From: a virus
Virus record (IMG/VR): IMGVR_UViG_3300037847_000963
Coordinates: 1 to 22,003 of that record
DNA length: 22,003 nt
Direction: 5' to 3' (one strand)
How positions within the stretch are numbered: the first letter of the stretch is position 1; each line of letters starts with the position of its first letter. This document shows positions 1,161 to 10,623 of this stretch, piece after piece. The notes below the pieces were generated by a model. The model saw nothing but the letters and a program-made list of their open reading frames with translations. It searched no databases and had not been told where the DNA came from. The position numbers were made by a program, and so were the translations under genes.

Positions 1161-1590
1161 AAAAGAAGTGAGGGTATGGGAATACCTAGTTAAAAATCGC
1201 AAAGCCGACTACGCTACCGTAGCGGACGAGTGTGGGGTAGACATCGAGTTTGTTAAAAACATTACATCTAGAATAAGTTCAGAAAATTGGCGTGAGGAAG
1301 TAAACTCTACTCAATCAACCGGACGCGGCGAGATACTAGACACAGCAAAAGATCTTGTCACTACAGACAGAGCCGAGCAGCACGGTGATGCAGAAGAGAA
1401 CTTTAGAATGATGGCTACGTATTGGAACACGCACCTTGGTCTTATAGATTTTATAAAGGTAGATGATGTTCCGATTATGCTGACCCTGATGAAGATCGCA
1501 AGACTACACGGGGACGGCACAAAGAACATAGACAACTACATAGATGTTTGTGGGTATATGTCATTGGGCGGCGAGATTGCCGAGACCTGA
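1153..1590 (+). CDS. Winged-HTH / DUF6378 domain fusion protein
   Basis: I chose ATG 1153, with GAGGA at 1140-1144 about 8 bases upstream; an upstream TTG at 1138 is possible but unlikely. The 145-residue product has two parts. Residues 1-55 look like a winged helix-turn-helix (VWEYLVKNRKADYATVADE, then EFVKNITSRIS). Residues about 65-143 match the helical DUF6378 pattern: RAEQHGDAEENF, then a helix with Trp-Asn, then VPIMLTLMKIARL, then NIDNYIDVCGYMSLGGEIA. DUF6378 is common in phages and has no proven activity; its conserved HGD..N and helical layout recall nucleotide-handling helical domains, which is only an inference. Its TGA overlaps the polymerase ATG by one base, so it may be linked to replication or act as a local regulator. 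Confidence 0.8.
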   Translation: MTKKEVRVWEYLVKNRKADYATVADECGVDIEFVKNITSRISSENWREEVNSTQSTGRGEILDTAKDLVTTDRAEQHGDAEENFRMMATYWNTHLGLIDFIKVDDVPIMLTLMKIARLHGDGTKNIDNYIDVCGYMSLGGEIAET

Positions 1591-3416
1591 TGGATATTTA
1601 CACGCTAGACTTTGAAACGTACTACGCTCAAGACTATTCGTTATCAAAGCTGACAACTGAAGAATATGTGCGAGACAAAAGGTTCGAGGTAATTGGGCTT
1701 GCGATCAAGAAGAACGACAAGAACACCAAGTACGTAGATGACCCAGCACTAGTACAACGCTTGTTAACACACATAGACTTCTCTCAGTGTGGTATTCTCT
1801 GTCATAATACTATGTTCGATGGGGCAATACTTTCGTGGCGGTATGGGATAAAACCAAAGGCGTGGTTTGATACGATGTGCATGGCTCGTGCCTTGCATGG
1901 TGTAGAGACTAGCGCGTCTCTCAAAGCAGTAGCGGAAAGATACGGTGTCGGCGTTAAGGGAACCGAGGTACACAATGCCAAGGGTAAACGCCGCGCCGAT
2001 TTCACTAGGGAAGAGACTTTACGATATGGCGAGTACGCCAAGAACGATGTAGATTTAACCTACAATCTTTTTAAAAAGATGGGAGCAAAGTTTCCCATGA
2101 AAGAACTCAAGCTAATCGATTTGACATTGCGTATGTTTATAGAGCCTACGCTTGATCTTGACCTTGGACTTTTGGAGCAGCATCTCGAAGATACCAAAGA
2201 ACGTAAGGATAAGTTGTTACGTGACGCCAATGTGGAAGATAAAAAAGATCTGATGAGCAACCAGAAGTTCGCCGATATGCTACGAGAGCTTGGTGTAGAA
2301 CCCCCGATGAAAATCAGCCCCACAACAGGCAAAGAGACGTACGCCCTAGCCAAAGCTGATGAAGGGTTCAAAGCACTGCAAGAACACGAAGATGATAAGG
2401 TACAATCTTTAGTAGCGGCTCGTATGGGTAACAAAAGTACCCTAGAAGAAACACGCACCGAACGGTTCATAAACATATGTAAGCGAGGATTGTTACCAGT
2501 TCCTGTGCGGTATTACGCAGCACACACAGGTAGATGGGGCGGTGCTGACAAGATAAATCTACAAAACCTACCAAGTAGAGGGCCAAACGCTAAGAAGTTA
2601 AAGAAAGCAATCATTGCGCCCGAAGGTTACACTATAGTAGAGGCTGACAGTTCACAGATTGAAGCTAGAGTATTGGCGTGGTTTGCAGGGCAGAACGATC
2701 TTACCGCTGCGTTTGCAAAAGGTGAGGACGTATATGTAAAGATGGCGTCACGTATATATCAATGTGACGAGGCGGATGTCACAAAGGATCAGCGGTTCGT
2801 TGGAAAAACTACTATACTGGGTGCAGGGTATGGCATGGGGGCCGAGAAGTTCGGTACACAGCTCAAGACGTTTGGGTATGAAGTCGAACCCCATGAGGCC
2901 CGGAGAATAATACAGATATATCGTGACGCTAACTATAAGATTAGTAAGGTGTGGCGAGACGCGAACTTCATGGTTCAACAGATGGCAAACAACAGAAAAG
3001 CAGCGTTTGGTTTAAAAGGTATTGTGGAGGTTGATGCTGAAAAGCAATCCCTGATAATGCCAAGTGGATTAAGTATATTGTATGACCAACTAGGTTCAGA
3101 GCAAACCGAAAACGGTTTGGAATATACCTACAAAACACGTCGTGGACGCACTAGGATATATGGCGGTAAGGTAATAGAGAATGTGTGCCAAGCAATAGCA
3201 CGTTGCATTATAGGCGAACAGATGCTACGAATTAATAAGAAATATAAAGTGGTGCTAACGGTACACGACTCAATAGTTTGCTGTGTGAAGGATGATCAAG
3301 TCTCAGCAGCGCAAGCGTACGTTGAAGAATGTATGAGATGGACACCCGATTGGGCAACAGGCTTACCTGTGGATTGCGAGAGCGGCACGGGGAAATCATA
3401 TGGAGACTGCGAGTGA
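1590..3416 (+). CDS. polA: Family A DNA polymerase with 3'-5' exonuclease
   Basis: This 608-residue enzyme copies the phage genome. The N-terminal exonuclease has motif I (D7, E9 in LDFET), motif II (HNTMFD, N73/D77) and motif III (Y149...D153). The polymerase domain has motif A (D353 in EADSSQIEAR), the O-helix motif B R402...K406...L410...Y414, and motif C (H559-D560 in TVHDS), so both activities look intact. There is no 5'-3' exonuclease domain and no obvious insertion between the exonuclease and polymerase domains. The residue equivalent to E. coli Phe762 is Leu (L410). ATG 1590 overlaps the previous stop (TGATG). A TTG 42 bases upstream in frame is possible but would add a non-conserved leader. 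The nuclease gene follows with a 4-base overlap. Confidence 0.96.
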   Translation: MDIYTLDFETYYAQDYSLSKLTTEEYVRDKRFEVIGLAIKKNDKNTKYVDDPALVQRLLTHIDFSQCGILCHNTMFDGAILSWRYGIKPKAWFDTMCMARALHGVETSASLKAVAERYGVGVKGTEVHNAKGKRRADFTREETLRYGEYAKNDVDLTYNLFKKMGAKFPMKELKLIDLTLRMFIEPTLDLDLGLLEQHLEDTKERKDKLLRDANVEDKKDLMSNQKFADMLRELGVEPPMKISPTTGKETYALAKADEGFKALQEHEDDKVQSLVAARMGNKSTLEETRTERFINICKRGLLPVPVRYYAAHTGRWGGADKINLQNLPSRGPNAKKLKKAIIAPEGYTIVEADSSQIEARVLAWFAGQNDLTAAFAKGEDVYVKMASRIYQCDEADVTKDQRFVGKTTILGAGYGMGAEKFGTQLKTFGYEVEPHEARRIIQIYRDANYKISKVWRDANFMVQQMANNRKAAFGLKGIVEVDAEKQSLIMPSGLSILYDQLGSEQTENGLEYTYKTRRGRTRIYGGKVIENVCQAIARCIIGEQMLRINKKYKVVLTVHDSIVCCVKDDQVSAAQAYVEECMRWTPDWATGLPVDCESGTGKSYGDCE

Positions 3417-4084
3417 GCATAGCACCTTGGTCGTTTAGTAAAGCGAAGGCATTTGATACATGCCCGAAGCAATTCTATCACGTTAATATACTAAAAGAAT
3501 ATCCCTTCGAAGAAACAGAGGCCATGCGGTATGGCACTGAGTTTCACAAAGCGTGTGAAGATTATATAGACAAAGAGAAACCACTACCAAAAAAGTTTGG
3601 TTTTATAGAACCTACGTTAGAAGTCCTAAAAGGCAAACGTGGTGTAAAGATATGTGAAAAGAAGTTGGGGCTAACTGAGAACTTGGAACCTTGCGGTTTC
3701 TTTGATAAGAAGGTGTGGTTCCGAGGTATAGCCGATCTTATAATTGTTGACGTATTGGCAGGGGCGGCTTGGGTGATTGACTACAAAACAGGTAAATCAT
3801 CCAAGTACGCTGATAAAGGCCAACTAGAACTAATGGCTCTCACGGTGTTTAAACACTATCCCGAAGTAAAAAAGATAAAGGCGGGACTGCTATTTGTCAT
3901 TGCGGGTAATTTAGTAAAAGAAACATATGAAATTGACTCAGAGTCAATTCTTTGGGAGAAATGGTTATCAACCTATGCTAAGATGCAGACAGCGTTTGAT
4001 ACAGAAGTATGGAATCCCCGCCCTTCTGGTTTATGCAAGCGTCACTGTCCAGTAACGGAATGTCCTCACAATGGGAGCAACTAA
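3413..4084 (+). CDS. PD-(D/E)XK nuclease, Cas4/RecB-like, with Fe-S-type cysteines
   Basis: A 223-residue nuclease of the PDDEXK_1 (RecB/Cas4-like) group. GTG 3413 overlaps the polymerase stop and has GGAGA about 6 bases upstream; the resulting N-terminus MSIAPWSFSKAKAFDTCPKQ is typical of the family. Motifs in order: FDTCPKQFYH (C17), RYGTEFH (H45), GIADLII (D108), VIDYKTG (D123, K125) and KGQLELMAL (Q137), which match the metal-binding and catalytic positions of these nucleases. Three further cysteines lie at the C-terminus (C208, C212, C217 in LCKRHCPVTECPH), matching the one-plus-three layout of Cas4 and AddB iron-sulphur clusters. It probably processes DNA ends or recombination intermediates beside the polymerase. 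No CRISPR array or cas1/cas2 is present. Confidence 0.9.
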   Translation: MSIAPWSFSKAKAFDTCPKQFYHVNILKEYPFEETEAMRYGTEFHKACEDYIDKEKPLPKKFGFIEPTLEVLKGKRGVKICEKKLGLTENLEPCGFFDKKVWFRGIADLIIVDVLAGAAWVIDYKTGKSSKYADKGQLELMALTVFKHYPEVKKIKAGLLFVIAGNLVKETYEIDSESILWEKWLSTYAKMQTAFDTEVWNPRPSGLCKRHCPVTECPHNGSN

Positions 4085-4347
4085 TGCCATACAAGAACAA
4101 ACCTAGACCTTACAAGAAAGAGTACAAACAACAGAAAGCGAGAGGCGAACATGCTGACCGAATGGAAAGGCAACGCGCTCGTAGAAAATTAGATAAGAAA
4201 AAAGTAAATAGAAAAGGTAAAGATATTGCACACAAGAAAGCATTAAGTAGAGGTGGTTCAAATAAAGACGGCTACACTTTACAAAGCCCGTCAAAGAACA
4301 GAGCGGCAGGGGGCCGGATGAGTAAGCCTCCACGTAAAAAGAAGTAG
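4084..4347 (+). CDS. Small basic HNH-like protein
   Basis: An 87-residue protein starting at ATG 4084, which overlaps the nuclease stop codon by one base. Over a third of its residues are Lys or Arg. Residues 43-73 (RKGKDIAHKKALSRGGSNKD, then QSPSKNR) resemble the core of small phage HNH endonucleases: H50, N60 and N72, with the characteristic GGSN and SPSKNR segments. It lacks the CxxC zinc pairs of many HNH proteins, and the last position is Asn instead of His. It may be a minimal HNN-type nuclease or a DNA-binding relative that has lost cleavage. The first 40 residues form a basic helical DNA-contacting arm. Its stop codon lies inside a small hairpin that begins the helicase leader. Confidence 0.7.
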   Translation: MPYKNKPRPYKKEYKQQKARGEHADRMERQRARRKLDKKKVNRKGKDIAHKKALSRGGSNKDGYTLQSPSKNRAAGGRMSKPPRKKK

Positions 4348-4373
4348 CTACAAGCTACCACGGAGAACAACAT
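4344..4373 (+). promoter_or_regulatory. Helicase leader: small hairpin plus extended Shine-Dalgarno
   Basis: The leader holds a perfect 5-bp hairpin, GTAGC (4344-4348), loop TACAA, GCTAC (4354-4358), which overlaps the upstream stop codon. It is followed by CGGAGAACAAC and the ATG at 4372. The segments GCTACAAG (4347-4354) and GGAGAACAACAT (4362-4373) both recur in reverse complement near the operon end (10591-10598 and 10574-10585). The hairpin is short and may be weak on its own. Regulation is inferred, not shown. Confidence 0.45.
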
Positions 4374-5907
4374 GAAAATAATTAGGGATAAAGCGTTACT
4401 GCTAAAAGTTCGTAACCCTAAAGCGATTACAACAGTAATCCCTAAAAGTAAGGAAGTGTCTATGAATGAAGTTGTCGTTAACTGGGGTATTGATGAAGTT
4501 CATACCTTAAAGAATTTAAATATAAAGATACCGTCACCTATTACTAAACGTTATAGCTGGCCCGGACAGTACAAACCGTTTGAACACCAGAAAGACACAG
4601 CATCGTTTCTGACTATGAACAAAAAAGCGTTCTGTTTTAACGAGCAAGGCACGGGCAAAACCGCGTCTTCTATATGGGCTGCTGATTATTTGATGAACCA
4701 AGGTAAGGTAAATAGAGTTCTCGTTATATGTCCTTTGTCGATTATGGATAGTGCATGGAGAAACGACCTGTTTTCTTTTGCTATGCACAGAACAGTTGAC
4801 GTTGCTTATGGTGCAAAAGAGAAACGTAAGAAAATTATCAACAGCGGCGCAGAGTTTGTAATTATAAATTACGACGGTGTAGAGATTGTAAAAGACGAAA
4901 TAGCAAACGGTGGGTTCGATCTGTTTATTGTAGACGAAGCTACGCACTATAAGAATGTACAGACAAAACGATGGAAGACACTCAACAGGATCATAGGAGA
5001 AGATGATTGGCTGTGGATGATGACTGGTACACCCGCAGCACAAAGCCCTTTGGATGCCTACGGCCTAGCCAAGATGGTTAATCCGTTATCCGTGCCAAGG
5101 TTCTTTGGGTCTTGGCGAGACATAGTTATGTGGAAAGTTACGCAGTTTAAATACAAACCAAAAGAGAACGCTAAAGATACCGTATACAACGCGTTACAAC
5201 CCGCGATCAGATTTACAAAAGACGAATGTTTAGACCTACCTGACATGGTATATACTAAACGTTTCGTCGAGATGACTCCGCAACAGAAGAAGTATTACGA
5301 AACGCTTCGCAAGAAGATGGTAATGCAGGTGGCAGGTGAAGATGTAACGGCAGCAAATGCGGCTATCGGGTTGAACAAACTACTACAGATCAGTACGGGC
5401 GCACTTTATACAGACGAAGGAGATACTATACAGTTTGATATAAAGAACAGATACCAAGTTCTCAAAGAGGTTATAGATGAAAGTAGCCAAAAGGTTCTGG
5501 TGTTTGTGCCGTTTAGACACACTATTGATCTACTATCGGAGAAGCTCCAGCAGGACAACGTAACGTCTGAGATCATACGAGGAGATGTTTCTGCGCCTAA
5601 TCGCACCGAGATATTCCGGCGCTTTCAATCAGATCGTGATCCTCGTGTATTAATAATACAACCTCAAGCGGCTGCTCATGGTGTTACCTTGACCGCTGCT
5701 AACACTGTAGTGTGGTGGGGGCCGACTTCATCTCTCGAAACATACGCACAGGCAAATGCTCGTGTGCATAGGTCGGGGCAGAAGCATAAGTGTACTGTTA
5801 TACAGCTTGCGGGATCTAATGCAGAAAAACGTATTTACCGTCTTTTAGATGATCGTATTAACATACACACAGAAATGATAAATTTATATAAAGAAATACT
5901 TGACTAA
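4372..5907 (+). CDS. SNF2-type (SF2) helicase/ATPase
   Basis: A 511-residue SF2 helicase of the SNF2 group, an ATP-driven DNA translocase. Domain 1: a Q-like region (FEHQKDTASFL, about 70-80), Walker A EQGTGKT (91-97), motif Ia (VICPLSIMDSAW), motif II DEATH (188-192) and motif III MTGTP (217-221). Domain 2: LVFVPFRHTIDLL, a GDV segment, QPQAAAHGVTLT and motif VI QANARVHRSGQ, the last being a hallmark of SNF2 proteins. ATG 4372 has GGAG about 6 bases upstream. Phages with family A polymerase often carry such a helicase; it may remodel forks, displace proteins or promote recombination. No DnaB-type helicase is seen here, so replicative unwinding more likely falls to the DUF927 protein downstream. 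Confidence 0.94.
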   Translation: MKIIRDKALLLKVRNPKAITTVIPKSKEVSMNEVVVNWGIDEVHTLKNLNIKIPSPITKRYSWPGQYKPFEHQKDTASFLTMNKKAFCFNEQGTGKTASSIWAADYLMNQGKVNRVLVICPLSIMDSAWRNDLFSFAMHRTVDVAYGAKEKRKKIINSGAEFVIINYDGVEIVKDEIANGGFDLFIVDEATHYKNVQTKRWKTLNRIIGEDDWLWMMTGTPAAQSPLDAYGLAKMVNPLSVPRFFGSWRDIVMWKVTQFKYKPKENAKDTVYNALQPAIRFTKDECLDLPDMVYTKRFVEMTPQQKKYYETLRKKMVMQVAGEDVTAANAAIGLNKLLQISTGALYTDEGDTIQFDIKNRYQVLKEVIDESSQKVLVFVPFRHTIDLLSEKLQQDNVTSEIIRGDVSAPNRTEIFRRFQSDRDPRVLIIQPQAAAHGVTLTAANTVVWWGPTSSLETYAQANARVHRSGQKHKCTVIQLAGSNAEKRIYRLLDDRINIHTEMINLYKEILD

Positions 5908-5954
5908 GTAGTATAAGTTACTATATGTCAGAAAAGTAATAAAAATGGAGAACA
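5900..5954 (+). promoter_or_regulatory. Candidate promoter and leader hairpin after the helicase
   Basis: This is one of the longer gaps in the left arm. It contains TTGACT (5900-5905), a 5/6 match to a -35 box, followed after 16 bases by TATATG (5922-5927), a weaker -10. Within it is a 5-bp hairpin, TAGTA (5909-5913), loop TAAGT, TACTA (5919-5923). Its sequence resembles the hairpin before the helicase (GTAGTATAAGTTAC against GTAGCTACAAGCTAC). An extended Shine-Dalgarno AAATGGAGAACA (5943-5954) then leads to the ATG at 5959. Either an internal promoter or a leader RNA element is possible. Confidence 0.35.
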
Positions 5955-5958
5955 TATA

Positions 5959-6351
5959 ATGTCGGTAAATATCGATAAATTGGTAAAGACCTTCATAAGA
6001 ATAAGGAACAAAAGGTCTGAGTTGTCCGCAGAGTTTAAAGAAGCGGATGAAAAGTTATCTAAACAACAGGATAAAATCAAGTTCGCTATGTTAGACCACT
6101 GCAAAGAGCAAGGGGTGGATAGTGTGAAGACTGCGGATGGTGTATTCTATCGCACTATTAGGAAAAAGATTTGGACAAATGATTGGGAGTCTATGTACAA
6201 GTTTGTACTAAAACATGAGGTTCCTGAACTCTTTGAAAAACGTCTTAATCAAACTAACGTAAAGCAGTTCTTGGAAGAAAACCCTGATCTTCAACCTGCG
6301 GGTCTAAATGTAGACAGTGAATACGTTATATCTGTGAGGAAAAATAAGTGA
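5959..6351 (+). CDS. Conserved coiled-coil phage protein (130 aa), unknown function
   Basis: ATG 5959 follows GGAGAACA 4-5 bases upstream. Residues 1-50 form a charged helix with coiled-coil character (IRNKRSELSAEFKEADEKLS). Then comes VDSVKTADGVFYRTIRKKIW, which looks like a small beta hairpin, then a helical segment TNDWESMYKFVLKHEV and a conserved-looking end (FLEENPDLQPAGLNVDSEYV). The layout recalls Gp157-type phage proteins, where a long helix precedes a short beta unit containing VKT..G, but I would not assign it to that family. It sits between helicase and ssDNA-binding genes and overlaps the next start, so a replication or recombination accessory role is the best guess. Confidence 0.8.
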   Translation: MSVNIDKLVKTFIRIRNKRSELSAEFKEADEKLSKQQDKIKFAMLDHCKEQGVDSVKTADGVFYRTIRKKIWTNDWESMYKFVLKHEVPELFEKRLNQTNVKQFLEENPDLQPAGLNVDSEYVISVRKNK

Positions 6352-6572
6352 TGGAAGATACACCTTATGTAAATATAGGAAAGGTCGCAGATTACTTCCA
6401 AGTGTCTGTGTCCACCATAAGAAAGTGGGTAACCAATAAATCTATTCCAGAGGATACCTACATAAAAGTCGGTGAAGTATATCGATTTCGTTTAGACGAC
6501 GTTGAAGCAGCATTGACACACAATACTAAAAAAGGGCAAGATCAAGCCCTAACTGAAAATGGAGAAACATAG
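6351..6572 (+). CDS. MerR/excisionase-like helix-turn-helix protein (73 aa)
   Basis: ATG 6351 overlaps the previous stop (TGATG); a GTG at 6348 is an equally spaced alternative to the GAGGA at 6336-6340. Residues 6-45 (VNIGKVADYFQVSVSTIRKW, then SIPEDTYIKVGEVYRFRLDD) match the single-domain MerR-like fold of HTH_17/excisionase proteins: helix-turn-helix, then a wing ending in Y-R-F. The C-terminal 25 residues are polar and likely flexible. No effector domain is present. No integrase is in the window, so an excisionase role cannot be claimed. It could be a local transcription factor or an architectural replication protein. It lies directly before the ssDNA-binding gene with no gap. Confidence 0.82.
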   Translation: MEDTPYVNIGKVADYFQVSVSTIRKWVTNKSIPEDTYIKVGEVYRFRLDDVEAALTHNTKKGQDQALTENGET

Positions 6573-7451
6573 ATGTCGGATATGGCGTTATTTGAAGAGG
6601 GCAATTCCCTCATAAGCAAAGATCTTTTCAAGGAACTTACAGCGGTAGATGATTTACTATCGGGCGGTACATCGGTAAGCACTATACCCCCACGCATAAG
6701 CATCAAAGGTGCAAAATTTAGAGAGATGGTAAGTGGCGAACAAACACAAGTTCGCAAAGACGATTTCTTAAATGTGGTAATTGTAAATGCAGGGGCGCTC
6801 TCTCGCACTTACTACGAAGGTGAGTACGATAGCGATAACCCTACACCCCCCGCATGTTGGTCACCTGACAATAAAAAACCTGATGCAGAGGTAGAAAACC
6901 CACAGGCTAAAACTTGTGAGTCTTGCCCTCAAAACGTTAAGGGGTCAGGTAAAGGCGAAAGTCGTGCTTGTAGATTTAATCAGCGTATAGCTGTTTTGCT
7001 TGAGGGAGACCTTGATACTGTGTATCAACTACAACTTCCCGCAACTTCTATATTTGGTAAAGACAAAAAAGGTATGGGTATGCAACAATACGTTGCTTTC
7101 TTAAAGTCAAAAGGTGCGCCATCTATTGGTGTGATTACAAAAATGTATTTTGACGAAGATAGTGCTGTGCCAAAGCTGTTCTTTAAACCAGAGAGACCTC
7201 TCAAGGAAGAGGAGTTGAAGCAAGCACTTGAAGCTAGAGAAAGCCCTCAAGCTCTGAACGCTATTACTATGACTGTATCTAAAGTCGATGCAGTTGAAAA
7301 GAAACGCGAGGTGAAAGTACAGGAAACCGAAGACGTGGTGGACGTTGAGGATACTGTAGAAGAACCAAAGAAGGTCTCCAAGAAGGCAGATGGCGCTGCT
7401 CCGCCGCCTGATGAAGACCTCGCGTCCATTGTTGAAGAGTGGGATGATTAA
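6573..7451 (+). CDS. Probable ssDNA-binding protein with acidic tail
   Basis: A 292-residue protein starting at ATG 6573 (GGAGAA upstream). Residues 60-210 look like a beta-rich core with an inserted cysteine cluster (C95, C115, C118, C133 in PPACW, CESCP and RACRF) suited to one zinc ion. After about residue 235 the sequence is acidic and low-complexity (VVDVEDTVEEPKK), then Pro-rich and ends PPPDEDLASIVEEWDD. Acidic tails ending near an aromatic residue are the partner-docking signature of SSB, T7 gp2.5 and T4 gp32. Position between helicase/polymerase and primase-helicase fits. I infer an ssDNA-binding role; it is not a standard bacterial SSB and the assignment is by analogy. Confidence 0.68.
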   Translation: MSDMALFEEGNSLISKDLFKELTAVDDLLSGGTSVSTIPPRISIKGAKFREMVSGEQTQVRKDDFLNVVIVNAGALSRTYYEGEYDSDNPTPPACWSPDNKKPDAEVENPQAKTCESCPQNVKGSGKGESRACRFNQRIAVLLEGDLDTVYQLQLPATSIFGKDKKGMGMQQYVAFLKSKGAPSIGVITKMYFDEDSAVPKLFFKPERPLKEEELKQALEARESPQALNAITMTVSKVDAVEKKREVKVQETEDVVDVEDTVEEPKKVSKKADGAAPPPDEDLASIVEEWDD

Positions 7452-7479
7452 CCTACTGGGGAACTTTAACAATGGTGGT

Positions 7480-7521
7480 TGTCGTGGTGGGGCTTCCATA
7501 CTTCTCCGCCTCACCACGGCA
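7480..7521 (+). promoter_or_regulatory. 14-bp stem-loop before the primase-helicase gene
   Basis: Bases 7480-7493 pair with 7508-7521 over 14 bp (two G-T wobbles, T7482-G7519 and G7490-T7511), around a 14-base loop. The inner arms are CGTGGTGGGGC and GCCTCACCACG. It fills most of the 87-base gap before ATG 7539, and the Shine-Dalgarno GGAG (7528-7531) begins about 6 bases after the stem. There is no T-tract, so it is not a canonical terminator. Translation control, RNA processing or a replication-origin hairpin are possible. Confidence 0.55.
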
Positions 7522-7538
7522 CATCTTGGAGCAGCATT

Positions 7539-10343
7539 ATGGAAACAACAGAATTTTTACGGGGGGTACTAGGTAGTAACGGTAACTACTGTGTATTCGC
7601 TGCGAGAGCGAAAGATAATATACGGATACAAAAGTTCTACAACACTATCGAAGAGGTAGAACGTGCCGCAAACAAATACGATAACGATGGGTTAGACGTA
7701 TACTTCGCGCTCAGTACATTCAAAGAACCAACAAATCGTAAAGGTGACAACGCTGAAGAATTAAAAGCTTTGTTTCTTGATTTAGACTGTGGGCCTTCAA
7801 AAGAGTACGCTACACAACAGCTCGCAGTGGCCGCATTACGTACCTTCTGTAAAGATCTCTCCCTGCCTAAACCTACAATGGTCAACAGCGGGCGCGGTGT
7901 TCATGTTTATTGGCCTCTTACCGAAGCAGTTTCGGCGGAACAATGGTTAGATGCCGCAGAGCGATTGAAGCAAGCCTGTGCCGATAACGGTTTACTGGCT
8001 GACCCTGCGGTGACCGCTGACGTGGCTCGTATCTTACGAGTACCTAACACTAATAACTACAAAGACGATAACCCTTTGCCCGTTATGTTGTACGGCGTGG
8101 AACCTATAAAGCCTGTGGTTCTCTCGGAGTTTATTGACAAACTTGGCGTTGATTTAAAGCCAGTAAGTAACATTGATATAGGAAAAGACGCGCTCTATGA
8201 AGCGTATGCTGACAACTCTGAGAATGTTTTTAAGACTATTATGCAGAAAACATTGCAAGGACGTGGGTGTGGACAGTTAAAATATATCGCTACGAAACAA
8301 GAAGAGATAAGCGAACCTTTGTGGAGAGCAGGGCTATCGATTGCAAAGTTCTGCATAGATGGAGAGATAGCAGCAGAAAAAATATCTAGTAGGCATCCTG
8401 ATTACAATGCAACTTCTATGTACAAAAAGATGGAAGAGATCAAAGGGCCGTATACTTGTGACAGGTTTAACGAACTAAATGAAGGTATCTGCAACAACTG
8501 CCCGTTGAGAGAACAGATAAAGTCACCTATTGTACTGGGCAAACGTATAAAGGAAGCTGAAGGTGAAGTCACTGTAGAAGCTCCTGTCTCTGGCAAGGTG
8601 TATGATATACCTATATTTCCCAAGCCATATTTTAGAGGCACAGCGGGGGGTGTCTTTCTGCGTAGCAGCAATGCTGACGGGGATATAGAAGAAGAACTAA
8701 TATACCACCACGATATTTATATTACTCGTCGTTTACATGACGAAGAACTTGGCGAAACACTAGTCTTTCGCTTACACTTACCTCGTGACGGTGTGCGTCA
8801 GTTCACTGTGCCGCTTACACACGTAACTTCAAGGGAGGAGTTTCGTAAAAGCATGGCACGAGAGGGCGTCACTGCATGGGGAAAAAACTTGGATAAACTT
8901 ATGGTATATACAACAAAATGGATAGATGAACTACAACACACATCAACAGCTTCTGAGGCGCATAGACAGTTTGGTTGGGTTGATGAAGACATGGAAGCAT
9001 TTGTACTGGGCGAGAAACTAGTTGAAGCAAACGACATAACTTACAACCCGCCTTCTTCCAAAACAGCGGGGTTTATGGACTCCTTTGAGCCGAAAGGGTC
9101 AGAAGAAAAGAACATAGAACTCCTAAACTTCTACGACAGAGAAGGGTTTGAGATGCATCAATACGTGGTTGGTGTAGGTTTTGGGTCTCCTCTCATGGCG
9201 TTGACAGGTCTAAACAGTATGGCAGTGCATCTGTTTGGTGGCACAGGTGTAGGTAAAACAACAGCGCAGTATGCGGCTATGTCCTTATGGGGCAACCCAG
9301 AGCTACTATCCCTACAGAAATCGGATACGCACAACTCACGTATGAACCGTGGCGAAGTCATGCATAGCTTACCTCTAATATCTGATGAGATGACCAACGT
9401 AACAAGCTCAGAGATGTCTGAGTATGTGTATCAAGTATCGGGGGGCCGTCAGAAGAACAGGCTATCGGCAAATGGTAACGAGGAACGTGTACGTGGTAAG
9501 CCGTGGAAACTATTAGCCCTCAGTTCTGGTAACACGAGCGCGTGGGAGATACTGAGCCGTGACAAAGCCACGCCGAAAGCAGAGATGCAGCGGCTGTTTG
9601 AGATAAAGGTGTTGAAGTTAATATCTGGTGCAGAAGATACAAAGACTACAGCAGACTTACACGAAGATATTCAGGTGAACTATGGTTGGATAGGGCCGAA
9701 ATACATACAATGGGTGATAAACAATAAAGAAGAAGCACGTAAGATTGTGCAGTCTATAAAAGCAAAGTTAGATGAAGCGGCAGGGCTTGGGCCTGAGAAC
9801 CGTTTCTGGTCTAATGGCAACGCTGTGATAATAGCAGGGCTGATGATTGCTAGAAAACTAGGGTTTGTTAACTATGACGTAGGCAAAGTGTACAAGTGGG
9901 TAGTCAAAGAACTTATACGTAGAAACACGTTTGTGAATGATATAGGGGCTTCTGTGGACGACACACTAGGTAACTACATATCAGAGAACTATAACAACAT
10001 ACTCAAGATCGAAAGCACTGAGGATCTACGCGGCAAGAACGATAACGGTCTAGATCAGTTAGTACCTGTCACTGCTGTACCGCGTGGGCAGTTGGTTGCT
10101 AGGTATGAACCTGATACCAAGATACTCTTCTTGCGGATCAAACCTTTTAAAGATTGGTGTACAGATCAACAGATAAACTATGCTTCTTTGGTTGATGATC
10201 TTAAACAAAAGAAAAACGCAAAGCGTGTAAAGAAACGTCTAACGAAAGGCACAGACTTCAACATGCCTCCACAAGACGTACTACAGATGAAATTTGAAGG
10301 GTTTGATGAGGTCTCCGATGAATCAGAAGGTGATGAAGCTTGA
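7539..10343 (+). CDS. Primase-helicase: AEP primase fused to DUF927 ATPase
   Basis: A 934-residue replication protein. I chose ATG 7539, with GGAG about 7 bases upstream, over a TTG at 7479 whose extension would cross a strong hairpin. Residues about 1-190 form an archaeo-eukaryotic primase domain: DLD (D81, D83), SGRGVHVYW (H122), and a third motif in ADVARILRVPNTNNYK. A cysteine-containing linker follows (C307, C318, C321 in CDRFNELNEGICNNC). The C-terminal half is a DUF927 helicase-like ATPase: Walker A GGTGVGKTT (K573), Walker B-like LISDEMT (D616, E617), then VSGGRQKNRLS and a sensor-like LALSSGN. It likely synthesises primers and unwinds DNA for the polymerase. The last 30 residues are acidic. 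Its stop overlaps the next gene. Confidence 0.93.
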   Translation: METTEFLRGVLGSNGNYCVFAARAKDNIRIQKFYNTIEEVERAANKYDNDGLDVYFALSTFKEPTNRKGDNAEELKALFLDLDCGPSKEYATQQLAVAALRTFCKDLSLPKPTMVNSGRGVHVYWPLTEAVSAEQWLDAAERLKQACADNGLLADPAVTADVARILRVPNTNNYKDDNPLPVMLYGVEPIKPVVLSEFIDKLGVDLKPVSNIDIGKDALYEAYADNSENVFKTIMQKTLQGRGCGQLKYIATKQEEISEPLWRAGLSIAKFCIDGEIAAEKISSRHPDYNATSMYKKMEEIKGPYTCDRFNELNEGICNNCPLREQIKSPIVLGKRIKEAEGEVTVEAPVSGKVYDIPIFPKPYFRGTAGGVFLRSSNADGDIEEELIYHHDIYITRRLHDEELGETLVFRLHLPRDGVRQFTVPLTHVTSREEFRKSMAREGVTAWGKNLDKLMVYTTKWIDELQHTSTASEAHRQFGWVDEDMEAFVLGEKLVEANDITYNPPSSKTAGFMDSFEPKGSEEKNIELLNFYDREGFEMHQYVVGVGFGSPLMALTGLNSMAVHLFGGTGVGKTTAQYAAMSLWGNPELLSLQKSDTHNSRMNRGEVMHSLPLISDEMTNVTSSEMSEYVYQVSGGRQKNRLSANGNEERVRGKPWKLLALSSGNTSAWEILSRDKATPKAEMQRLFEIKVLKLISGAEDTKTTADLHEDIQVNYGWIGPKYIQWVINNKEEARKIVQSIKAKLDEAAGLGPENRFWSNGNAVIIAGLMIARKLGFVNYDVGKVYKWVVKELIRRNTFVNDIGASVDDTLGNYISENYNNILKIESTEDLRGKNDNGLDQLVPVTAVPRGQLVARYEPDTKILFLRIKPFKDWCTDQQINYASLVDDLKQKKNAKRVKKRLTKGTDFNMPPQDVLQMKFEGFDEVSDESEGDEA

Positions 10344-10545
10344 TGACCTAAACCCTGATGGGCTTAGAGTTACTATAAACTGGGACGCTATGGATGTAGG
10401 TTCTTCGTTCTTTCTACCGTGCATAAATACAGAGAAAGGCACTAAACAACTAAAAAGTGTTGCAAAAATGAAAGCATGGGAGTTTGAAGTGCAGATTTGC
10501 ATAGAAAACAAAAAATTAGGTTTACGTGTGTGGAGAACTATGTGA
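10318..10545 (+). CDS. Small conserved hypothetical protein (75 aa)
   Basis: The start is a choice between ATG 10318, which has GAGG 6 bases upstream, and ATG 10333, where the purine run is only 2 bases away; I prefer 10318. Either way it overlaps the primase-helicase end. The core reads DGLRVTINWDAMDVGSSFFL, then a conserved-looking PCINTEKGTKQL, a short basic helix, and ICIENKKLGLRVWR. This suggests a compact alpha/beta domain with two strands that resemble each other (GLRVTINW and GLRVWR). It is the last gene before the terminator. No family recognised; a basic character and position next to replication genes hint at nucleic-acid or replisome binding. Confidence 0.72.
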   Translation: MNQKVMKLDDLNPDGLRVTINWDAMDVGSSFFLPCINTEKGTKQLKSVAKMKAWEFEVQICIENKKLGLRVWRTM

Positions 10546-10586: not shown

Positions 10587-10598
10587 TTTACTTGTAGC
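10574..10598 (+). promoter_or_regulatory. 3'UTR segment complementary to two gene leaders
   Basis: ATGTTGTTCTCC (10574-10585) is the exact reverse complement of 4362-4373, covering the helicase ribosome binding site and the first two bases of its start codon. CTTGTAGC (10591-10598) is the exact reverse complement of 4347-4354. The spacers are 7 bases in the leader and 5 here. TGTTCTCCATTT (10578-10589) is also a perfect 12-base complement of the leader at 5943-5954. It could be a 3'UTR antisense regulator, or a relic of an inverted gene leader on the - strand. Confidence 0.45.
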
Positions 10599-10623
10599 CC
10601 CCACATTTAGTGGGGGTTTTTTT
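10596..10623 (+). terminator. Intrinsic terminator of the + strand replication operon
   Basis: CCCCCAC (10598-10604), loop ATTTA, GTGGGGG (10610-10616) form a 7-bp GC-rich stem, extendable by A-T and G-T pairs, followed by seven T residues (10617-10623). This is a textbook rho-independent terminator for the rightward operon. On the - strand the same hairpin follows the giant gene's stop but lacks a downstream T-tract, so it is not a canonical terminator in that direction. The T-tract overlaps that gene's stop codon (10622-10624). Confidence 0.88.

Follow-up and report, generated by a model that had tools for sequence, protein, structure and literature searches.

Introduction

Gp43 of phage T4 represses its own translation via a hairpin that precedes the ribosome-binding site of its gene (PMC3014915, available part). 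In that part of the source, the gene 43 operators of T4 and RB69 comprise 16–18 bases, share their top letters and are bound by the enzyme. The hairpin described here resembles this operator type in its position just upstream of the ribosome-binding site of the enzyme's gene. It differs in its stem of 12–16 bp, its free loop and its stem letters, which are free between clades, and its binding by a protein is putative.

In pRN plasmids, a stem-loop beside the AEP-helicase gene is conserved in structure and divergent in sequence, and that of pRN1 is the presumed origin (PMC4234260, available part). The pRN1 origin belongs to an AEP-SF3 gene, lies 3' of it, comprises 100 nt, is movable and was shown to be needed for replication (same part of PMC4234260). 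The phage hairpin likewise keeps its structure as its sequence drifts and adjoins an AEP primase-helicase gene. In contrast to the pRN1 origin, it is located 5' of the gene, has a length of about 40 nt and is locked to the start codon.

With intrinsic terminators the hairpin shares the GC-rich stem between genes, whereas the U-tract is missing in the sequence studied. A further related element is the Rfam RNA int-alpA (RF02996), reportedly described in a paper of 2017; to our knowledge, its function has not been described. A three-way junction resembling it stands at the hairpin's place in a sister clade of the phages, and an E. coli copy likewise fills a gap between a stop and a start codon.

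In this report, the virus record IMGVR_UViG_3300037847_000963 is analyzed; the whole stretch of 22,003 bases is referred to as the window. The hairpin precedes the primase-helicase gene (Table 1). A literature search covering titles and the beginnings of abstracts returned no description of this leader hairpin.

Table 1. Positions of the hairpin, the adjoining genes and related loci (window coordinates unless a locus is named)
Feature	Position	Strand	Remarks
Upstream gene, phrog_27714 ("unknown function")	6573–7451	+	Invariant cysteines and acidic tail
TTAACAATGG box	7466–7475	+	Near-clade phages have a similar box immediately before the stem
5' arm of the stem	7480–7493	+	TGTCGTGGTGGGGC; sequence read and fold
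Loop, 14 nt	7494–7507	+	Sequence and length vary among relatives (4–19 nt, L115 excluded)
3' arm of the stem	7508–7521	+	GCCTCACCACGGCA; sequence read and fold
Shine-Dalgarno GGAG (7528–7531) and spacer	7528–7538	+	Not part of the stem; region reads GGAGCAGCA, the majority form in alignment A1
Primase-helicase gene	7539–10343	+	AEP-like N-terminus and DUF927 domain; hairpin locked to its start
Three-way junctions in L115–L128, L133, L136, L145–L153, L163, L177, L181, L183	just before the primase ATG		
Three-way junctions (continued) in L187, L188, L191–L193, L195	just before the primase ATG		
Two-gene arrangements	L005:1515–2234 and 2206–2913; L036:1486–2202 and 2202–2909		

Results and Discussion

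The hairpin in front of the primase-helicase gene

The N-terminus of the encoded protein matches the DNA polymerase/primase family phrog_2478 (residues 4–186, E 7.8e-12), and its LigD_Prim-Pol score of 22.1 bits is under the cutoff of 27.4. It contains the segments FLDLDCG and GRGVHVYW, which we take to be AEP primase motifs. The DUF927 domain is recognized with 80.2 bits (cutoff 22.6), and the PDB entries 8tch and 5dgk are relatives of this part. DUF927 domains fused to AEP primases were predicted to be helicases by Kazlauskas et al., who also cite a staphylococcal DUF927 helicase shown as such (PMC5862659, available part).

The hairpin is located in a gap of 87 nt (7452–7538) between the upstream ORF and the primase-helicase gene. 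This gap is the widest between the window genes from 1590 to 10343, the others measuring −88 to 51 nt in a gene list set by hand. The original prediction, made from the sequence alone, had placed a 14-bp stem-loop at 7480–7521, about 6 bases from the Shine-Dalgarno sequence and without a T-tract, and had called it the longest stem found in a gap of the window. The coordinates, the spacing and the missing T-tract are correct: both direct reading and folding give 14 uninterrupted pairs, including two G-U, 6 nt separate the stem from the GGAG, and the 8 nt following it are CATCTTGG. Among the contiguous helices of the window, the stem ranks first with a score of 35 (runner-up at 272–308 with 34), and it ends 17 nt before the primase ATG (7539).

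The RNA fold of positions 7470–7530 amounts to −29.5 kcal/mol, shuffles average −17.0 (z −4.31), and none of 200 dinucleotide shuffles folds equally well. Folded as DNA, the same hairpin region reaches −12.1 (z −3.22), again with 0 of 200 shuffles equal. For the longer stretch 7452–7560, z of the RNA fold is just −1.87 and 9 of 200 shuffles are equal. The hairpin observation is thus confirmed, and the hairpin is better supported than a reading of the sequence alone could reveal.

In Rfam, no known RNA family was found for the hairpin; the window gave no match over the gathering score, and the best four matches at E≤10 are far under their cutoffs. The stem is also contained in a 954-aa ORF that would start at TTG 7479. 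A role as coding sequence was rejected, as the 75 nt preceding the ATG contain an in-frame stop in 72 of 98 regions (the window and 97 loci). TTG 7479 is an unlikely start because ATG 7539 is common to the relatives.

Conservation and covariation of the stem

A scan of viral contigs with the primase yielded 55 relatives, three of which (L044, L048 and L056) are without the gene start. All of the 52 usable near relatives have a stem of 12–16 bp that ends 17–22 nt before the ATG. Conservation and covariation in related phages had been proposed as a check of the hairpin, its loss beside retained genes as grounds for rejecting the interpretation; the stem is retained.

From 37 distinct upstream sequences, 29 were picked by eye for alignment A1. 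RNAalifold finds the same stem in A1 with 13 pairs, 8 of which show compensatory double changes. Pairing is preserved in 98.7% of 377 pair cells compared to 87.8% after shuffling (0/500), and the covariation score is 0.513 compared to 0.287 (0/500), with every slid register at or below 0.213. Two weaker measures are the number of pairs with a double change (8 versus 6.6 shuffled, 96/500) and the number of further pair types (20 versus 17.0, 12/500). Four of the 13 pairs are invariant in the near clade, all of them G-C. These count against a purely structural role, since such a role does not require invariance.

Of 117 distinct 90-nt stretches preceding primase genes, 92 contain a helix that no more than 1 in 100 shuffles attains. 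As a control, such a helix is present upstream of the neighboring gene in 2 of 49 cases. Nineteen of the 25 primase-upstream regions without such a helix carry the three-way junction. The other misses are L134, L198, L199 and L200 (3–4 of 100 shuffles), Pseudomonas phage Rollin (29% identity), in which a gap of 21 nt contains no hairpin (58/100), and L211 (28% identity), in which the stem is not significant (40/100 and 18/200). As the sequences are akin, shuffle counts and binomial values are not to be read as probabilities of independent events. The hairpin is kept beyond chance, with compensatory changes on both arms.

More distant relatives were obtained by a profile search with the primase, which confirmed at least 513 of them. 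Eighty loci were examined, including 45 new ones; 44 of the latter have a stem of 11–16 bp and the 45th, L115, has a three-way junction. From a further set of 80 loci, 56 (40 of them distinct) entered the hairpin scan of the deeper relatives. At 57–59% protein identity (L098, L100–L103 and L106) and in L105 (53%), the stem letters are still like those of the near clade. In L107–L114 (50–52%) they are replaced, and L108 and L114 have CCACGG on the 5' arm. The corresponding gap also holds short GC-rich hairpins in Rhizobium phage TM3_14A (25% identity) and in most phages related to it; the gene starts of this group are approximate because they were taken from residue offsets. A hairpin with other letters is present in the same gap of L210, which comes from a Verrucomicrobiales bin (36% protein identity). 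In another search set of 14 loci, L196 and L209 are without a gene start. Genome contigs contributed two loci, both on short MAG contigs, and a DNA search of the phage collection gave no match. Between some clades the stem letters are thus free to change while the fold stays.

The primase-helicase relative of TM3_14A (L058:11761–14844) is designated "putative integrase protein" in the public record.

Strand and position

Mismatches were counted with a search that penalizes G·T and A·C equally. In 43 distinct stems from the near relatives and the profile-search loci, 51 G·T and 1 A·C were found. Across 88 stems of all clades there are 102 G·T and 15 A·C, 13 of the latter in three-way-junction loci. 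Since a G·T on this strand is an A·C on the other, the large excess of G·T indicates that the mRNA-sense strand is what folds. The structure is kept on that strand, most simply as RNA; a sense-strand ssDNA hairpin might give a weaker version of the bias.

Distances were measured in 67 of 68 distinct upstream regions (L115 excluded). The stem lies 10–43 nt behind the upstream stop codon (s.d. 9.2) and 14–26 nt ahead of the ATG (s.d. 1.9). In L131 and L132 the stem starts just 7 nt past the stop as read by eye, which is under the measured minimum of 10 nt. The stem thus keeps its place relative to the start codon of the primase gene and not to the upstream stop, although the constant spacing may merely reflect tight packing of hairpin, Shine-Dalgarno sequence and start.

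With a covariance model of the hairpin (R1), a single site was located in each of 26 out of 28 records; the remaining two records break off within the primase gene. A repeated element was rejected, as R1 gives no second site in any of the 28. The idea of a G-rich transcript or R-loop was also discarded: the G-rich arm is the 5' arm in the near and TM3 groups and the 3' arm in others. The TTAACRATAG box was considered as a phage-wide promoter and rejected for want of a strong excess over shuffles. Its counts compared to mononucleotide shuffles are 9 versus 8.6, 12 versus 8.3, 12 versus 7.7 and 2 versus 4.7; those in the window are 7 versus 3.3 (mononucleotide shuffles) and 16 versus 12.7 (dinucleotide shuffles).

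The genes upstream of the hairpin

Both kinds of upstream protein were searched by tblastn against the DNA upstream of 58 primase genes. At 22 loci, including the window, a full phrog_27714-type gene is present without a gp2.5-like core. Twenty loci have a phrog_27714-like copy that lacks the first 30-odd residues and the tail, followed by a gp2.5-like ssDNA-binding protein (phrog_112). In 15 loci the gp2.5-like gene is found alone in the upstream DNA covered, and L028 has neither type, its upstream ORF matching no PHROG. A swap of phrog_27714 for the gp2.5-like gene is ruled out by the 20 loci that have both. The hairpin or the junction is present in all four arrangements and therefore goes with the primase gene, not with a particular upstream gene.

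In three pairs of loci (window/L005, L033/L036 and L100/L106), the genes adjoining the hairpin share just their last 41–46 residues, which are 67–71% identical. This C-terminal tail is acidic (e.g. DLASIVDDWDD), DNA identity resumes in it, and in these pairs it is always found on the gene adjoining the hairpin, whichever protein type is encoded. The phrog_27714 type has four invariant cysteines. The occurrence of the tail on either protein type suggests that the phrog_27714 type, when bearing the tail, may do ssDNA-binding work, which points to a candidate role for a PHROG family of unknown function. The AlphaFold model of the upstream protein has a mean pLDDT of 61, and searches gave no Pfam match and no PDB match at E≤0.001; the weaker PDB matches include a few ssDNA-binding proteins, which are not evidence.

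Proposed role as a structural leader element

The hairpin is interpreted, with a probability of roughly one half, as a cis-acting structural element in the RNA leader that uncouples primase-helicase expression from the upstream gene and adjusts its level. It is presumably transcribed together with the upstream gene and appears to work by its fold rather than by its sequence. It would fit between a ribosome at the upstream stop codon (at least 10 nt away) and a ribosome starting on the primase gene (at least 14 nt away), spacings that hold for the 67 regions measured. In this position it could stop ribosomes of the upstream gene from running on or reinitiating, and it could prevent base pairing between the ribosome-binding site of the primase gene and mRNA farther upstream. 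As a result, the primase-helicase would be made at its own, probably low, rate.

Three options had been offered by the original prediction: a translational operator, an RNase processing site or a single-strand initiation hairpin. The G·T bias and the spacing to the start codon favor those at the mRNA level (translational element, processing site), and a role of this kind is favored over a DNA initiation hairpin, which found no support. In a large phage family, a structured RNA accompanies the primase-helicase genes, including clades in which its letters have been exchanged. It would provide a defined entry point to the question of how phages control the level of a replication initiator.

Alternative explanations

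An autogenous translational operator is doubtful. Here the primase-helicase, or another phage replication protein, would bind the hairpin when off DNA and repress its own translation. The position directly 5' of the ribosome-binding site of the replication enzyme's own gene, the four invariant G-C pairs of the near clade and the conserved unpaired letters of the three-way-junction clade are consistent with it, and T4 gp43 and gp32 are precedents (PMC3014915, available part). However, the loop varies in sequence and length and some clades have exchanged the letters of the stem, unlike in the gp43 operators of T4 and RB69, whose top 10 bases are identical (same part of PMC3014915). A particular upstream protein is an unlikely binder because different genes stand upstream.

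It is rather unlikely that the hairpin acts as a transcription attenuator or RNA-processing site, which would end or cut some transcripts after the upstream gene and leave less primase mRNA. A stem kept in structure and free in sequence suits both. For attenuation, 26 of 61 distinct near relatives have 5–6 T in the 8 nt past the stem, and the E. coli int-alpA copy, which occupies a comparable gap, precedes TTTATTTTT. On the other hand, 9 of the 61 have 0–2 T, the window tail is CATCTTGG, and a terminator needs no constant distance to the next ATG. The U-tract that immediately follows the GC-rich stem of intrinsic terminators is missing at the hairpin of the window and is not kept throughout the relatives. 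The terminator scan is no test of the hairpin, since its loops were limited to 3–8 nt and the hairpin loop has 14. Processing is disfavored by the stem length, as 12–16 bp are short for RNase III.

The three-way junction of the sister clade around L115, a larger element found at the hairpin's place in many of its loci, allows a broader and quite unlikely reading. Hairpin and int-alpA-type junction would be an interchangeable riboregulator before replication genes that senses the replication state, and integrated elements with int-alpA and DUF927 would have acquired it from phages. The RF02996 model exceeds its cutoff of 35.8 bits in 2 of 44 records, G055 (39.6 bits) and G040 (37.9 bits), and both matches end 8 nt before the primase ATG; L121 is slightly under the cutoff with 34.7 bits. 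In the E. coli element L212, the aligned part of int-alpA (5001–5058) is flanked by the stop codon of an integrase gene (4986) and the following start (5082), and a DUF927 gene lies further along. The clade of the window, however, has the plain hairpin and, like the window itself, no RF02996 match. A junction model (R2) built from 18 sister-clade loci scores above 58 bits in 35 of 80 sources; these all belong to the sister clade, and 18 of them are its own training rows. In the reciprocal test, R2 gave no match in the E. coli int-alpA copies L212 and L213 at E≤1. The junction letters shared between the sister clade and int-alpA were read by eye. The sister-clade junction keeps the unpaired letters CTAGG and GAA, which suggests specific recognition there. 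L131 and L132 have plain hairpins that retain CTAG or CTGG, TTGAAA and CTGG as read by eye, and they look like collapsed junctions. The phage loci provide a possible context for int-alpA.

In some of the junction loci, base pairing between the CCGAAA-type junction and a TTTCGG shortly behind it is conceivable (by eye), which would be a possible pseudoknot.

An ssDNA initiation hairpin, i.e. an origin or primase-loading site recognized by the AEP primase-helicase, is improbable. The primase is the constant partner of the hairpin, the DNA fold also beats shuffles, and in pRN1 and phage BIP-1 a stem-loop lies beside an AEP-helicase gene (PMC4234260, available part). This explanation stays alive because pRN1 uses a stem-loop that is conserved in structure and variable in sequence (same part of PMC4234260). 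Against it, G·T far outnumbers A·C, more than expected for a DNA stem, the distance to the start codon is constant, only a single copy is present, and the hairpin lies 5' rather than 3' of the gene with ~40 nt instead of 100. The GC-skew check proposed for an origin did not point to the hairpin either: none of five contigs has a skew extreme there. In each of them the cumulative skew peaks ~3 kb farther downstream, shortly after the end of the primase gene (window position 10543), and the gene direction in the window switches near this maximum.

Finally, it is most improbable that the hairpin is a recombination linker that lets upstream genes be rearranged beside a fixed primase gene: DNA identity between the window and L005 stops in the upstream gene and resumes in the tail codons 5' of the hairpin (window 7364), with a similar break in L033/L036 and L100/L106, but the shared C-terminal tail suffices for homologous exchange without a hairpin, and the strand bias in mismatches is not expected.

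Other hairpins and motifs

Where the convergent gene sets of the window meet, a terminator-like hairpin with a T-run is present (10596–10618). The runner-up helix at 272–308 has 16 pairs, lies within a small ORF (239–388) and is also found in G013 (29096–29132, minus strand). The protein of this ORF contains QLSLF, presumably a sliding-clamp-binding motif.

Another hairpin, followed by GCCAGTTA, occurs ~30 nt before a gene start in G005 (54493), G008 (3632), G003 (22911) and G013 (31585). The gene behind it in G005 is small and nuclease-like, with the Pfam family Hjc barely over the cutoff (L065:14550–14858). Furthermore, a GCCAGTT motif with shared flanks is present three times at G003 30122–30342 and has no Rfam match.
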